Positions 39,303 to 44,670 of a stretch of 64,000 nt of DNA are shown here, one piece after another. Both the position numbers and the translations under genes were made by a program. The stretch spans positions 30,857 through 94,856 of the forward strand of contig CAKUBM010000006.1 in assembly GCA_934643145.1 (NCBI GenBank). Reading direction: 5' to 3'. The notes under the pieces were generated by a model, which was given only the letters and a program-made list of their open reading frames with translations, had not been told where the DNA came from and searched no databases. Numbering within the stretch: position 1 is the stretch's first letter; each line of letters starts with the position of its first letter. Origin of the DNA: an uncultured Collinsella sp. (GTDB taxonomy: Bacteria; Actinomycetota; Coriobacteriia; Coriobacteriales; Coriobacteriaceae).

Positions 39303-40490
39303 TCACTCCAAGCCAAGCAATCGTTTGTAGACATCGAGGCCCTTGAGTAGGATTTCCTCGTCGAAGAGCATGTTATCGGTATGTAGAGCGCTTGTGGCAT
39401 AGGCTGGGCAGCCATCAGCGTCGATCGGGTTGCCTTGGTCCTCTGGCACGCCCGTGCCCAGCAAGAAGAACACGCCCGGCAGATGGCGCTGATAGAACGC
39501 GAAATCCTCGGCGATTAGCAGCGGCTCGTCCACAAGTTGTAGCTCGGACAAGGCAGGCGCGATATGGGCGAACAGCTCGGGGTCGTTATCGACCGGCGGA
39601 TAGCCCTCGGCAAAGTCGAGATCGTACGTGCAGCCCGTTGCGGCACAGGCATCGTCCAGCACGCGACGCACGCCCTCGCGCGCGCGGTCGAACATGTCGT
39701 CCGTAAACACACGCAGGCTTCCGGCCACATGGGCCTCCCCCGCCACCGCATTGCAGACGGTGCCTGCCTGCAGCAGGCCGAACTTGCCAATGCAGGGCTC
39801 ATCGGCACCCAGGTCATCCATCAGTTCGCGCTCGGCAACCAAGAACTTGGCAGCTGCCAGCGCCGCATCATGCGACTCCTCGACCGGAACGCCATAGGTC
39901 TTAGCGATATGGATGCTCGTCCCGTGAATATGAATGTGCGTCTCGCTCGAACGCGCCAGCAGCGGACCGGAACAACTCGCCAACGTGCCGGCAGGCAGAT
40001 CGGGCCACACATGGAAACCAAAAATGCGGTCGGCCCCATAGCGCTCGAACACACCACTCTCGCATACCGTCTTGGCACCACCGGTCGTCTCCTCGGCCGG
40101 CTGGAACACAAAGAGAACGTTGCGCCTAATGGCGCCCGGCTGTTCGCGAATCGTACGGTCGACATACGTCGCGGCGGCAAGTGCCATGGCCATGTGTCCG
40201 TCATGTCCGCAAGCGTGCATCTTGCCAGGATGGGTCGAAGCGAACGCTGCCCCCGTTGTCTCGGCAATGGGCAGCGCATCCATATCGGCGCGAATCGCCG
40301 CGGCATGCGCGGCACCAACGCCAGCGTCGAAGAAAGCGCAGACGCAGCTGGGGCACGGATGGGTCACCTCGCAGGCGAGCGGAGCGAGCACGCCCTCGAT
40401 ATAGGCGATGGTTTGCGGAAGATCGAAGTCGAGCTCCGGAATGCGGTGCAAGTCGCGACGATAACGACGGAGTTCTTGGAGCTCGGTCAT
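39303..40490 (-). CDS. M20 family amidohydrolase, probable N-acetyldiaminopimelate deacetylase
   Basis: 395 residues of the M20D amidohydrolase group. Metal ligands are seen in HACGHDGHMAMAL and in PAEETTGGA; RYRRDLHRIPELDF is the usual start. A dimerisation domain lies in the middle and DFAFYQRHLPGVFFLLG near the end. Related enzymes split N-acetyl-amino acids and hippurate; because the divergent operon encodes DapH, which makes N-acetyl intermediates, deacetylation of N-acetyl-LL-DAP is the most economical role. ATG 40490 follows AAAGGAA. Hippurate- or auxin-conjugate-type hydrolase is the alternative. Confidence 0.75.
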   Translation of the reverse strand: MTELQELRRYRRDLHRIPELDFDLPQTIAYIEGVLAPLACEVTHPCPSCVCAFFDAGVGAAHAAAIRADMDALPIAETTGAAFASTHPGKMHACGHDGHMAMALAAATYVDRTIREQPGAIRRNVLFVFQPAEETTGGAKTVCESGVFERYGADRIFGFHVWPDLPAGTLASCSGPLLARSSETHIHIHGTSIHIAKTYGVPVEESHDAALAAAKFLVAERELMDDLGADEPCIGKFGLLQAGTVCNAVAGEAHVAGSLRVFTDDMFDRAREGVRRVLDDACAATGCTYDLDFAEGYPPVDNDPELFAHIAPALSELQLVDEPLLIAEDFAFYQRHLPGVFFLLGTGVPEDQGNPIDADGCPAYATSALHTDNMLFDEEILLKGLDVYKRLLGLE

Positions 40491-40600
40491 AGGGATTCCT
40501 TTCATGGGACGACTCGGTTGACACCTATTGTGACGCAGGATTGTGGCACCCTTGTTTCTAGCATGATGCTGCATTTTTTAAACGTTATATACGAATACTC

Positions 40601-40629: not shown

Positions 40630-40640
40630 CTTTACCACTT

Positions 40641-40868
40641 GATAGAGGCGCGGGCACGAAGAGCCGCGGGCGAGTCGGCAGACTTTGACCCTGCGGGGAG
40701 GCGAAACCCGCCGAACTGGGCATTTCGGGCACGAACAGCCTGGTGGGCCTACGGGAAACACCCGTAGGACTGTCTGCAGCAATGCGGGAGCGCTATCCGG
40801 ACATTGGGTCCACGCTATGCGGATTCGATGCGCAGATGGCGCCGTCTGGATAGCGAGGTTTACGGGAT
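40641..40868 (+). promoter_or_regulatory. Lysine riboswitch (L box) and expression platform
   Basis: The aptamer spans 40641-40797: GATAGAGGCGC pairs with GCGCTATC as P1, and the conserved interior words GGGGAGGCGAAACCCGCCGA, CTGGGC, GGTGGGC, CGGGAAACACCCG and CTGTC appear in L-box order. The 3' strand of P1 and the next bases (40791-40802) can instead pair with GTCTGGATAGCG (40844-40855), which abuts the GCGAGG ribosome site (40853). No T-run terminator is present, so control is probably translational or Rho-linked. Confidence 0.9.
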
Positions 40869-43178
40869 ATGGCATTGACCCCCAACGAGGCATATGCGGC
40901 CAAGCAGCCGTTTGTGGACAAGGAGACGCTCGAGCATATCGTCGAGCAGTTCCCCACGCCATTTCATCTATACGACGAGGCGGGCATCCGCCGCAACATG
41001 CAAGAAGTGCGCGACGCCTTCGCATGGAACCCGGGCTTTAAGGAATACTTTGCCGTCAAGGCCAATCCCAACCCGGCGCTCATCTCCATTCTCAACGAAT
41101 ACGGCTGCGGCTGCGATTGTTCGAGCTATACCGAGCTCATGATTGCCCGCTCACTGGACATCACGGGACACGACATCATGTTCTCGTCCAACGACACGCC
41201 GGCGGCGGACTTTGCCCTTGCAGATAAACTGGGCGCCATCGTCAACTTTGACGACATCAGCCATATCGAGTTCTTTGAGCGCGTCGCGGGCCCCACCCCC
41301 AAGACAGTCAGCTGCCGCTTTAATCCGGGCGGCCTGTTCCAGCTCTCCAACGGCATCATGGACAACCCGGGCGACTCCAAGTACGGCATGACCACCGAAC
41401 AACTCTTCGAGGCTTTCCGCATGCTCAAGGCCAAGGGCGCCGAGAATTTTGGCATCCATGCCTTCCTTGCCAGTAATACCGTCACTAACGGCTACTATCC
41501 CAAGCTCGCACGCATCCTCTTTGAACTTGCCGTGCGCCTGGAGCGTGAAACGGGCGCACATGTCGCCTTTATCAATCTGTCCGGCGGTGTGGGTATCCCC
41601 TACCTGCCCGAGCAGCAGGCTAACGACATCCACGCCATCGGCGAGGGCGTACACGCGGCCTACGACGAGATTCTGGTCCCCGCTGGCATGGGCGATGTGG
41701 CGATCTGCACCGAGATGGGTCGCTTTATGATGGGACCCTACGGCTGCCTGGTGACCAAGGCCATCCATGAGAAGCAGATCTACAAGAACTATATCGGTGT
41801 CGATGCAAGCGCCGTCGATCTGATTCGCCCTGCCATGTATGGCGCCTACCACCACATTACGGTGATGGGTCAGCCGGGTGGCGCCGACAAGACTGCGGCG
41901 CCCGTTACGGACACCTACGACATCACGGGCAATCTGTGCGAGAACAACGATAAGTTCGCCATCGATCGCGAGCTACCGCATATCGACATGGGTGACCTGC
42001 TCGTGATTCACGACACGGGCGCGCATGGCTACTCCATGGGCTACAACTACAACGGCCGCCTGCGCTCCGCCGAGGTCCTGCTGCGCCCCGATGGCTCGGC
42101 CGACCTCATCCGCCGCGCCGAGCGCCCAGGCGATTATTTTGCCACGCTCGACGTGCTGCCGTGCGGCCGCGAGCTGCTGGCAAAGTCGCGCGCCGAAAGT
42201 GCTCGTCGTCGCGCCCAAGACGAGCGTCTGGCCGTCGCCGCCCAATGGAACAAACGCATCCAGATCGCGGAAGCGAAGGAGAAGAGCATGGACATCCGCA
42301 ATCTCGAGGGCTCAATCGTCGCCCTCGTCACGCCGTTTAAAAAGGACGGCAGCGTCGACTTTGACGCACTCGAGCGCCTTATCGATTTCCACCTGCAAAA
42401 CGGCACTGACGCTATCCTCACCCTGGGCACCACCGGTGAGAGTGCCACGATGACCGATGACGAGGACAACTCCGTTGTCGCCGCCGTGGTCAAGCAGGTT
42501 GCAGGCCGCGTCCCCGTCATTGCCGGCTCGGGCTCCAACTCCACGCAGACCATGCTCACCAAGTCGCTCACCTATCAAGGCCTGGGAGCCGACGGCCTGC
42601 TGCTCATTACCCCCTACTACAACAAGTCCAATGAAGAGGGTATCTACCAGCACTTTAAGACCGTAGCGGATGCCGTGGACATCCCCTGCATCCTGTACAA
42701 CATCCCCGGCCGCTGCGGCTGCGGCATCAGCGAGCGCAACGTGGAGCGCTTGGCCGCGCACCCCAACATCATGGGTATTAAGGAAGCCTCGGGCAACGTC
42801 GCCTACGCGGCCAAGATCGCCCACCTGCTGTCCGACGACTTCCGCATGTACTCAGGCGAGGACGCGCTTACCGTGCCGCTCATGAGCCTGGGTGCCTCGG
42901 GCACCATCAGCGTGTGGGCCGATGTTCAGCCGCAGCTCGTGCACGACATGTGCCGCGCCTATCTGGACGGCGACGTGGAGCGCGCCCGCGATATCCAGAT
43001 TGCCGGCCAGCCGCTCATCAACGCCCTCTTTAGCGAGGTCAACCCCATCCCCGTCAAGGAAGCGCTCGCCCAGATGGGTATGATCGAGGCAAACTACCGT
43101 ATGCCGTTGTGCCCCATGGCAGACGACACGCGCGCTGCACTTACCGATGCTCTGAAGGGAGCTGGTCTGCTTGATTAA
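40869..43178 (+). CDS. lysA-dapA: Fused diaminopimelate decarboxylase / dihydrodipicolinate synthase
   Basis: One reading frame of 769 residues. Residues 1-473 are LysA of the type with CTEMGRFMMGPYG and HGYSMGYNYNG: PLP Lys64 in YFAVKANPN and NLSGGVGIPY are present. A charged helical linker (about 440-473) leads without a stop into a complete DapA: TTGE (521-524), YNIPGR (Tyr610) and IKEAS (Lys638), with catalytic spacings identical to E. coli DapA. An internal ATG at 42288 with AAGGAG seven bases upstream could also yield free DapA. The chain thus joins the first committed and last enzymes of lysine synthesis. Downstream dapB overlaps. Confidence 0.92.
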   Translation: MALTPNEAYAAKQPFVDKETLEHIVEQFPTPFHLYDEAGIRRNMQEVRDAFAWNPGFKEYFAVKANPNPALISILNEYGCGCDCSSYTELMIARSLDITGHDIMFSSNDTPAADFALADKLGAIVNFDDISHIEFFERVAGPTPKTVSCRFNPGGLFQLSNGIMDNPGDSKYGMTTEQLFEAFRMLKAKGAENFGIHAFLASNTVTNGYYPKLARILFELAVRLERETGAHVAFINLSGGVGIPYLPEQQANDIHAIGEGVHAAYDEILVPAGMGDVAICTEMGRFMMGPYGCLVTKAIHEKQIYKNYIGVDASAVDLIRPAMYGAYHHITVMGQPGGADKTAAPVTDTYDITGNLCENNDKFAIDRELPHIDMGDLLVIHDTGAHGYSMGYNYNGRLRSAEVLLRPDGSADLIRRAERPGDYFATLDVLPCGRELLAKSRAESARRRAQDERLAVAAQWNKRIQIAEAKEKSMDIRNLEGSIVALVTPFKKDGSVDFDALERLIDFHLQNGTDAILTLGTTGESATMTDDEDNSVVAAVVKQVAGRVPVIAGSGSNSTQTMLTKSLTYQGLGADGLLLITPYYNKSNEEGIYQHFKTVADAVDIPCILYNIPGRCGCGISERNVERLAAHPNIMGIKEASGNVAYAAKIAHLLSDDFRMYSGEDALTVPLMSLGASGTISVWADVQPQLVHDMCRAYLDGDVERARDIQIAGQPLINALFSEVNPIPVKEALAQMGMIEANYRMPLCPMADDTRAALTDALKGAGLLD
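42288..43178 (+). other. dapA: Possible internal translation start for free DapA
   Basis: In frame with the fusion, ATG 42288 starts exactly where stand-alone DapA proteins start and is preceded by GAAGGAG. It encodes 296 residues, normal for DapA. Whether it is used is inference. Confidence 0.55.
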
Positions 43179-43911
43179 GACCGTCATTATGGGAACGGGC
43201 CGCATGGGCTCGCTCATCCGCACTACCGCCGAGGGCGTTGTCGACGCCGCCGGTCAGCCCGTTTTCGACATCGTCGCCCAGATCGGTTTCGATCTGTCCG
43301 AGCTCGAGAGTGCCCCGGCAGCAGACATTATCATCGACTTCTCGAACGTCGTGACCTTTGATGCCGTCGTCGCTTATGTCAAGCGTACAGGCGCCGCGTT
43401 AGTCTCGGGCACCACGGGCTACACACCCGAGCAGATGGACTGCCTGCGCGAGCTGGGTCAGAACGCCCGCGTCATGCACTCCGGCAATTACTCCATCGGC
43501 ATCGCCGCCCTGCGTCATCTGGTAGCACAGGCCACACGCGAGCTGCCCAGCTTTGACTGTGAAATCGTCGAGACGCACCATAACCAAAAGGTCGACGCCC
43601 CCAGCGGCACTGCCAAGTTGTTGCTCGACGCCGTCGTCGAAGCTGAACCCGAGGCAGGCTACCACCCCGTCTATGGCCGCGAGGGCATGTGCGGCGCGCG
43701 TGACCCCAAGGAGATCGGCATGCACTCGCTGCGCGGCGGCACCGTCGCCGGCGTGCACGAGGTGAGTTTCTTTGGCCAGGACGAGGAGGTCACGCTCACC
43801 CACCGCGCCACGAGCCGTCAGATCTTTGTCAACGGCGCCCTGGCAGCCGCGCAGAAGCTCGTCACCCGCGAGCGCGGCTTCTACACCTTCGACCAGGTCA
43901 TGTTCGCCTAA
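43171..43911 (+). CDS. dapB: 4-hydroxy-tetrahydrodipicolinate reductase
   Basis: 246 residues. The nucleotide-binding motif IMGTGRMGS, HSGNYSIGI and the family signature ETHHNQKVDAPSGTAKLL are intact. It reduces the DapA product. TTG start with AAGGGAG upstream, overlapping the fusion gene by 8 bases, indicating translational coupling. Slightly short N-terminal part relative to other DapB proteins. Confidence 0.95.
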   Translation: MIKTVIMGTGRMGSLIRTTAEGVVDAAGQPVFDIVAQIGFDLSELESAPAADIIIDFSNVVTFDAVVAYVKRTGAALVSGTTGYTPEQMDCLRELGQNARVMHSGNYSIGIAALRHLVAQATRELPSFDCEIVETHHNQKVDAPSGTAKLLLDAVVEAEPEAGYHPVYGREGMCGARDPKEIGMHSLRGGTVAGVHEVSFFGQDEEVTLTHRATSRQIFVNGALAAAQKLVTRERGFYTFDQVMFA

Positions 43912-43950: not shown

Positions 43951-44670
43951 ATGAGCAACGCAGCCGAGATGGACGCACAGGAGATTATCAACTACATCGC
44001 CACCGCGCCCAAAAAGACGCCCGTCAAGCTGTACGTGCGCGAGAAGCCGGGCATGAAGGTCCAGTGGGGCAATGCGCACGTCTACGGCGGTCGTCGTGGC
44101 AAGACCGTCTTTGGTGACTGGGATGAGCTTAAGGCTATCCTGGACGCCAACGCCGATTCCATCGATTACTACGACGTTGAAAACGATTGCCGCAACTCCG
44201 CCGTGCCCATGCTCGACCTTAAGGGCATCAATGCCCGCATCGAGCCGGGCGCGATCATCCGCGACCGCGTCGAGATCGGCGACCGTGCCGTCATCATGAT
44301 GGGTGCCATCATCAATATCGGCTCCGTCATCGGTGAGGGCTCCATGATCGACATGGGCGCCGTGCTGGGCGGCCGCGCCACCGTGGGCAAGAACTGCCAC
44401 ATCGGCGCTGGAACCGTGTTGGCAGGCGTCGTTGAACCCGCAAGCGCCACGCCCGTCATCATCGAGGACGATGTCATGATCGGCGCCAACGCCGTGGTCC
44501 TGGAGGGCGTGCGCGTAGGCAAGGGCGCTGTCGTTGCCGCCGGCGCCGTGTGCGTCGAGGACGTCCCCGCCGGTGCCGTCGTGGCCGGTGTCCCCGCCCG
44601 CGTCATCAAGATGCGCGACGCCCAGACCGACAGCAAGACCGGTCTCGAAGAGGGCTTACGTCAACTTTAA
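43951..44670 (+). CDS. dapH: Tetrahydrodipicolinate N-acetyltransferase
   Basis: 239 residues. An N-terminal helical domain ([22 protein letters not shown]) is followed by a left-handed beta-helix of hexapeptide repeats ([20 protein letters not shown] and on) ending in [11 protein letters not shown]. This is the DapH/DapD-acetyl type, which commits the pathway to N-acetyl intermediates. Last gene of the riboswitch operon, 39 bp after dapB. It requires an N-acetyl-DAP aminotransferase and deacetylase; candidates are at 48462 and 39303. Confidence 0.93.

Follow-up and report, generated by a model that had tools for sequence, protein, structure and literature searches.

Evidence for a selected in-frame fusion of lysA and dapA in the Collinsella aerofaciens complex

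The stretch of DNA analyzed here, 64,000 nucleotides of a contig from an uncultured Collinsella sp. (hereafter, the window), carries a single open frame that joins a LysA-type decarboxylase to a DapA synthase. LysA, which converts meso-diaminopimelate to lysine, acts last in the lysine branch, and DapA acts first. A reading made from the letters only had proposed a LysA-DapA fusion with a preserved internal start. Comparisons with related genomes partly support this proposal as a whole and, with the intact fusion present in 20 of 43 genomes of the genus, confined to one clade and carrying a linker under purifying selection, support a real and selected fusion. Our overall reading, to which we assign a probability of about 0.75, is that a one-time loss of the lysA stop codon gave a bifunctional enzyme that was retained under control of a lysine riboswitch, and that some free DapA is also made.

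The fused gene, its two halves and its operon

Positions of the fused gene, its parts and neighbouring features, numbered from the first letter of the window
Feature	Position	Strand	Remarks
Fused lysA-dapA open reading frame	40869..43178	+	769 aa; ATG start; 0 internal stops
LysA-type PLP decarboxylase part, residues 1-431	40869..42161	+	PF02784, PF00278; residues aligned to E. coli LysA
Linker, residues 432-473 (42 residues), charged, Ala-rich	42162..42287	+	dN/dS; nonsense and missense changes depleted
GAAGGAG, Shine-Dalgarno sequence ahead of codon 474	42275..42281	+	-8.1 kcal/mol
Internal ATG, codon 474	42288..42290	+	fused and unfused junctions compared in register
DapA part (4-hydroxy-tetrahydrodipicolinate synthase), residues 474-769	42288..43178	+	TIGR00674, catalytic residues
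Lysine riboswitch aptamer (RF00168), operon leader	40635..40803	+	Rfam
dapB	43171..43911	+	TIGR00036; coordinates from first possible start (TTG)
Tetrahydrodipicolinate N-acetyltransferase (dapH/dapD, acetyl type)	43951..44670	+	TIGR03532
Amidohydrolase gene (TIGR01891), divergent from the operon	39303-40574	opposite	

The single frame described in the sequence-only reading was confirmed. Pfam placed the LysA N domain at residues 39-288 of the protein, the LysA C domain at residues 290-384 and the DapA domain at residues 479-763, with both LysA models (PF02784 and PF00278) scoring above their cut-offs. The operon leader matches the lysine riboswitch family with 73.2 bits against a gathering score of 30 (E 3.2e-17), and a lysine riboswitch was found just 5′ of lysA in all 14 loci searched (13 unfused and one fused, out of 80 collected loci). 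Between the end of the aptamer and the ATG, at positions 40793-40858 of the window, there is an inverted repeat, CTATCCGGAC ... GTCTGGATAG, that stops just before GAGG; it is a possible expression platform through which the riboswitch would act on translation. Downstream, dapB read from its TTG shares 8 nt with the 3′ end of the fusion gene; it scores 178.1 bits with its family model (cut-off 122), while the dapH-type acetyltransferase scores 345.4 bits (cut-off 231.75).

The DapA half is, as claimed, a complete synthase. It passes the TIGR00674 cut-off (335.8 bits versus 206.15) as well as that of PF00701 (306.8 bits versus 22.1). Thr521/Thr522, Tyr584, Tyr610, Arg615 and Lys638 align with Thr44/Thr45, Tyr107, Tyr133, Arg138 and Lys161 of E. 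coli DapA, which we take to be the catalytic residues of that enzyme; all six are identical. Among the seven E. coli residues that presumably bind lysine, S48, A49, N80 and Y106 are retained in the fusion, and H53, H56 and E84 are replaced in the alignment by Asp, Asp and Thr, respectively. Since three of the seven positions are changed, inhibition of the fused DapA by lysine is doubtful.

The claim of a complete decarboxylase stood with respect to the fold, Lys64 and most aligned active-site residues; it did not stand in two respects. The LysA half scores 268.7 bits with TIGR01048, below the equivalog cut-off of 297.9, and Phe199 occupies the position of E. coli LysA His191, a residue that we take to stack on PLP. 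Lys64, Cys357 and Glu358 align with K54, C342 and E343 of E. coli LysA (presumably the PLP lysine and the active-site Cys-Glu pair) and are invariant in our alignment A3 wherever the residue is present. Five relatives from the same subfamily likewise fall below the TIGR01048 cut-off (265.2-286.4 bits), and the His191-equivalent position is occupied by Phe in 42, Met in three and Leu in two of the 47 A3 sequences that have a residue there. Because subfamily relatives share both the low score and the lack of a His191 equivalent, neither feature reflects damage to the LysA half. The subfamily is common to Lachnospiraceae, other Coriobacteriia and Kiritimatiellales, and its use of Phe, Met or Leu at this position may point to a different mechanism or substrate. 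At LysA residues 195-204 (window positions 41451-41480), the subfamily reads GIHAFLASN or near it.

The solved structures closest in sequence to the LysA half are diaminopimelate decarboxylases, and the fusion is the sole LysA-like match in 13 of 15 fused genomes checked, the other two (G003 and G010) also carrying a decayed piece. Since the TIGR01048 cut-off is missed, the assignment of diaminopimelate as the substrate rests on context and aligned residues; with the riboswitch and with dapA, dapB and dapH in the same operon, diaminopimelate decarboxylase is the best reading. The catalytic activities of both halves are predicted ones.

Distribution and origin of the fusion

We examined 43 genomes of the genus to which the nearest genome belongs (the window's own genome is not among them). 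The fused 769-codon frame is present in 21 of them at 97-99% identity, 20 times intact and once, in genome G060, with one TAG codon. The stop-free linker noted in the window is thus found in 20 of the 43 genomes, which means that it is not an assembly error. In 12 genomes lysA and dapA are separate and adjacent, and in the remaining ten both are absent at an E-value threshold of 1e-60. The dapB gene is present in the same 33 genomes and absent from the same ten (G002, G006, G015, G020, G026, G027, G028, G033, G034 and G066); G026 has only a weaker DapA-like match (35%, 5e-41). Among the 40 genomes with a completeness of 90% or more and a contamination of no more than 5%, all three genes are missing in eight. 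As judged from gene content, genomes of this kind probably belong to lysine auxotrophs with a cell wall free of diaminopimelate; the argument about the wall comes from the gene loss, there being no direct statement on the Collinsella cell wall in the literature passages. Twelve named contigs (L031-L042), several of which are the same contigs as in the 43-genome count, are all fused; seven bear the name of C. aerofaciens, a common human gut commensal, and the others are Collinsella sp. or uncultured Collinsella.

A survey of the order sampled 247 genomes, of which 109 with a match at E 1e-120 were judged and 138 were not. No second stop-free lysA-dapA junction was found among the 109 beyond the known fused frame, which accounts for 21 of them (G060 included). 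In 24 genomes a single in-frame match spans the two halves and contains one or more stops; in 42 the halves appear as two matches whose coordinates put them either in different frames or in a shared frame interrupted by a stop. Same-frame pairs with a stop were seen in G025, G082, G179 and G223, where the stop was counted in the match, and in G013, where it was shown directly. G013 had been a candidate for a second fusion, with an open-frame figure of 860 that can run through stops, and was rejected on account of the stop between its genes. Nineteen genomes gave a LysA match only; inspection of their DNA revealed dapA adjoining, past a stop or in another frame, in 12 cases and no dapA in the stretch in seven. 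Three genomes gave a DapA match alone. It had been suggested that separate genes in all close relatives would speak against the fusion; in fact, the nearest species carry the fusion, and separate genes are seen in the more distant relatives that we examined.

A set of 14 proteins (P0013-P0018 and P0020-P0027; 77-88% identical) at first sight extends the fusion beyond the C. aerofaciens complex. They were rejected as apparent assembly chimeras: in the alignment, Lachnospiraceae-like LysA segments give way to almost identical Collinsella sequence, at points that differ from protein to protein. Such chimeric entries would mislead surveys of domain architecture. Protein P0030 was left out, as its tail fits none of the frames at the junction; three words of it were also tried against the whole window and fit none there. 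The junction sequence had no match among plasmid records.

A tree was built from 62 LysA+DapA pairs, into which a few genomes entered twice via two collections. It groups the 25 fused sequences, without exception, into a single clade (support 0.998). The LysA tree supports this clade equally (0.998) and the DapA tree less (0.77); which group is sister to it varies between the concatenated, LysA and DapA trees. The fusion therefore arose once, at or close to the base of the C. aerofaciens complex.

Two genomes carry decayed separate pieces of lysA, dapA and dapH in addition to the fusion (G003:C5:26000-40000, locus L118, and G010:C2:18000-31000, locus L119). These pieces cover lysA residues 349-458, dapA residues 470-635 and dapH residues 187-221; ca. 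3 kb separates the piece of lysA from that of dapA, and L118 and L119 are 99.7% alike over 13 kb. The pieces were considered as a clue to the source of the fusion and rejected as such: the top 30 matches for the dapA remnant all show 73-75% nucleotide identity and come from many lineages.

The linker and the internal start

Pairwise comparison of 20 distinct fused sequences gave dN/dS values of 0.038 for the LysA part (residues 1-431), 0.097 for the linker (432-473) and 0.029 for the DapA part (474-769), with pS values of 0.247, 0.246 and 0.212, respectively. The linker is therefore constrained less than either enzyme, its dN/dS being about 2.5 to 3 times theirs. We also counted mutations by parsimony on the gene tree of 23 distinct sequences, with rates taken from four-fold sites outside the linker; counts of this kind are inflated by recombination and multiple hits. 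In the linker, 24 missense changes were observed versus ca. 229 expected, roughly one-tenth of what neutrality predicts, and 91 synonymous changes versus 75 expected, i.e., no reduction. Outside the linker, missense changes numbered 129 versus 2627 expected in LysA and 47 versus 1747 in DapA. One nonsense change was observed in the linker versus 9.0 expected (P=0.001); a more conservative tree-free count, in which each site is taken once, gave one stop site versus 4.2 expected (P(<=1)=0.03). Since missense changes are depleted and synonymous ones are not reduced, the constraint acts, by this comparison, on the amino acids and not at the DNA level, which means that the linker is translated. In two divergent fusions, P0012 (88% identity) and P0019 (85%), the C-terminal half of the linker, WNKRI.IA..KEKNM, is kept.

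AlphaFold2 was run with alignment A3, which was used without the DapA-only rows that had been misplaced in alignment A2. The model shows the linker as one helix, residues 431-468, at low confidence (block-mean pLDDT 61, 65, 51 and 38); the linker of ca. 40 residues is probably helical. The DapA half was modelled poorly (mean pLDDT 69) because A3 lacked DapA-only rows, and with an overall pTM of 0.56 the arrangement of the domains is undependable.

The GAAGGAG and ATG that had been noticed where DapA normally begins are indeed there, 6 nt apart, and when fused and unfused junctions are compared in register, the ATG of codon 474 stands where separate dapA genes begin. We scored internal in-frame ATGs (23-26 per sequence) against the anti-Shine-Dalgarno tail. 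Codon 474 has the strongest match in all 23 distinct sequences, at the energy given in the table for the window, so that the claim of a preserved internal start is upheld. The rival start codons in the window score -8.0 kcal/mol (GTG379) and -7.6 kcal/mol (ATG528), and the true start scores -7.6 kcal/mol. Starts of unfused dapA genes range from -2.6 to -11.2 kcal/mol at the 31 of 33 loci that have a projected ATG or GTG; at the other two, L056 and L062, the projected dapA codon is not a start. RNA folding around the junction revealed no unusual structure (z -0.34).

AAGGAG (codons 470-471) and Met474 are invariant in 23 of 23 sequences. The synonymous invariance of AAGGAG was considered as proof of the internal start and found insufficient: with invariant G-ending codons at ten of 26 conserved Lys and 13 of 34 conserved Glu positions, it has a ca. 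15% chance of arising under coding constraint alone.

Two natural variants bear on the same question. In G060, codon 439 is a TAG located between the enzymes, a few codons 5′ of the position where LysA of its unfused relative G025 ends; it leaves a LysA of 438 residues, an open linker, and open dapA, dapB and dapH. The variant protein P0031, under which 353 member sequences are listed, matches the fusion as far as residue 457, continues in another frame and ends ca. 50 nt into dapA. Provided that the TAG and the frameshift are genuine and that these strains can still produce lysine, DapA has to be initiated at codon 474 or close to it, which supports, only indirectly, the production of both a fusion and a free DapA. 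Alternatively, the two variants may be errors or come from lysine-requiring strains.

Origin of the arrangement, alternatives and meaning

We propose that the ancestor of the C. aerofaciens complex had an ordinary Coriobacteriales operon in which a lysine riboswitch was followed by lysA, dapA, dapB and dapH. The lysA stop codon would then have been lost and the short spacer translated, giving an in-frame fusion to dapA, once, that was subsequently kept. Ribosomes initiating at position 40869 would make one polypeptide with LysA and DapA in fixed one-to-one stoichiometry and in one place, with both activities tethered by the linker and jointly controlled by the lysine riboswitch. The old dapA start would have stayed partly functional, giving some free DapA. 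The fused bifunctional enzyme is most likely the main product, and free DapA is a plausible second one.

That the fusion is an artefact of sequencing or assembly, with two normal genes joined by error, has a negligible probability. Chimeras of this gene do exist, as the 14 chimera-like proteins of similar length attest, but the same stop-free frame recurs in independent genomes of the genus and in all 12 named contigs, which refutes this explanation. A more substantial alternative is that the fusion is neutral or nearly so: the stop was lost, drift fixed the loss, the long protein is tolerated without any advantage, and the fusion persists since a stop in the linker would cost DapA expression. 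The single origin within one species complex, the existence of the re-split G060 and the frameshifted P0031, and the retention by both enzymes of aligned catalytic residues like those of separate enzymes all fit such a history. A useless spacer would not, however, need the strong depletion of missense changes seen in the linker, nor the preservation of its C-terminal half in fusions only 85-88% identical, and we consider neutrality unlikely. Depletion of stops taken separately could reflect dependence of DapA on read-in from lysA rather than a helpful tether, and the re-split and frameshifted variants may mean that the tether is not indispensable.

It is also plausible that the gene is a dual-product one in the full sense, yielding sizeable amounts of the fusion as well as of free DapA, which co-assemble. 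DapA is a tetramer and LysA a dimer, and free DapA would fill the DapA tetramer around LysA dimers. The rank of the codon 474 ribosome-binding site, its energy within the range of unfused dapA genes, the invariant AAGGAG and Met, the KEKNM kept in both divergent fusions, the ordinary folding of the junction RNA and the reliance of dapA in G060 on codon 474 or a nearby start are all consistent with this. A precedent is provided by alpha2beta2 aspartokinase, whose long and short products come, according to a passage of PMC8690038, from in-frame overlapping genes, although its short product is a regulatory subunit and the putative short product in Collinsella is a whole second enzyme. Against dual production stand the fact that the Lys-Glu codons yield AAGGAG anyway, the nearly equal strength of GTG379 and ATG528 in the window, and the nature of the linker selection, which points to the importance of the long form and is silent on the short form. 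We regard production of both forms in quantity as a serious possibility with odds somewhat short of even. A more tentative extension is that fusion and free DapA form a mixed complex of the lysine branch, with internal initiation under a single lysine riboswitch determining its composition, the gene being young, with split and fused forms coexisting. The reading that we prefer remains a retained bifunctional enzyme accompanied by some free DapA.

No description of a LysA-DapA fusion was found in the open-access literature, and there is none in the passages of PMC1885841, PMC5584792 and PMC10624682. The nearest known fusion, and a precedent for the one described here, is LysC-LysA (ask-lysA, Xanthomonadaceae; NF006515), which likewise combines LysA with an early, non-consecutive enzyme of the same pathway. 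Its partner is aspartate kinase and its LysA is C-terminal, whereas in Collinsella DapA is C-terminal to LysA. The Pfam scan revealed no aspartate kinase domain in the fusion protein, and the protein scores 174 bits with NF006515 (cut-off 802), by its LysA part only, at model positions 497-859 of 861. Unfused operons with the same gene order and lysine riboswitch, lysA-dapA-dapB(-dapD), are listed for other Coriobacteriales, Atopobium parvulum and Slackia heliotrinireducens, in Table 1 of PMC5584792. Unlike the fusion, all unfused adjacent pairs of Coriobacteriales that we examined have a stop before dapA or place it in another frame.

LysA and DapA do not catalyze successive steps, so that one would not expect direct substrate channelling, and the usual argument for fusing enzymes does not apply. 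Faster feedback by lysine was suggested as a benefit of the ask-lysA fusion in a passage of PMC1885841; in Collinsella the changed lysine-binding residues of DapA weaken this argument and make quick feedback on DapA an unlikely advantage. The gain from the fusion would more likely lie in co-assembly, co-localisation or fixed dosage. The joint loss of lysA, dapA and dapB from some genomes suggests that diaminopimelate may be dispensable in the genus, so that the operon would serve lysine alone. The unfused sister species, the re-split genome and the frameshifted variant make up natural pairs for testing why enzymes of a pathway fuse.
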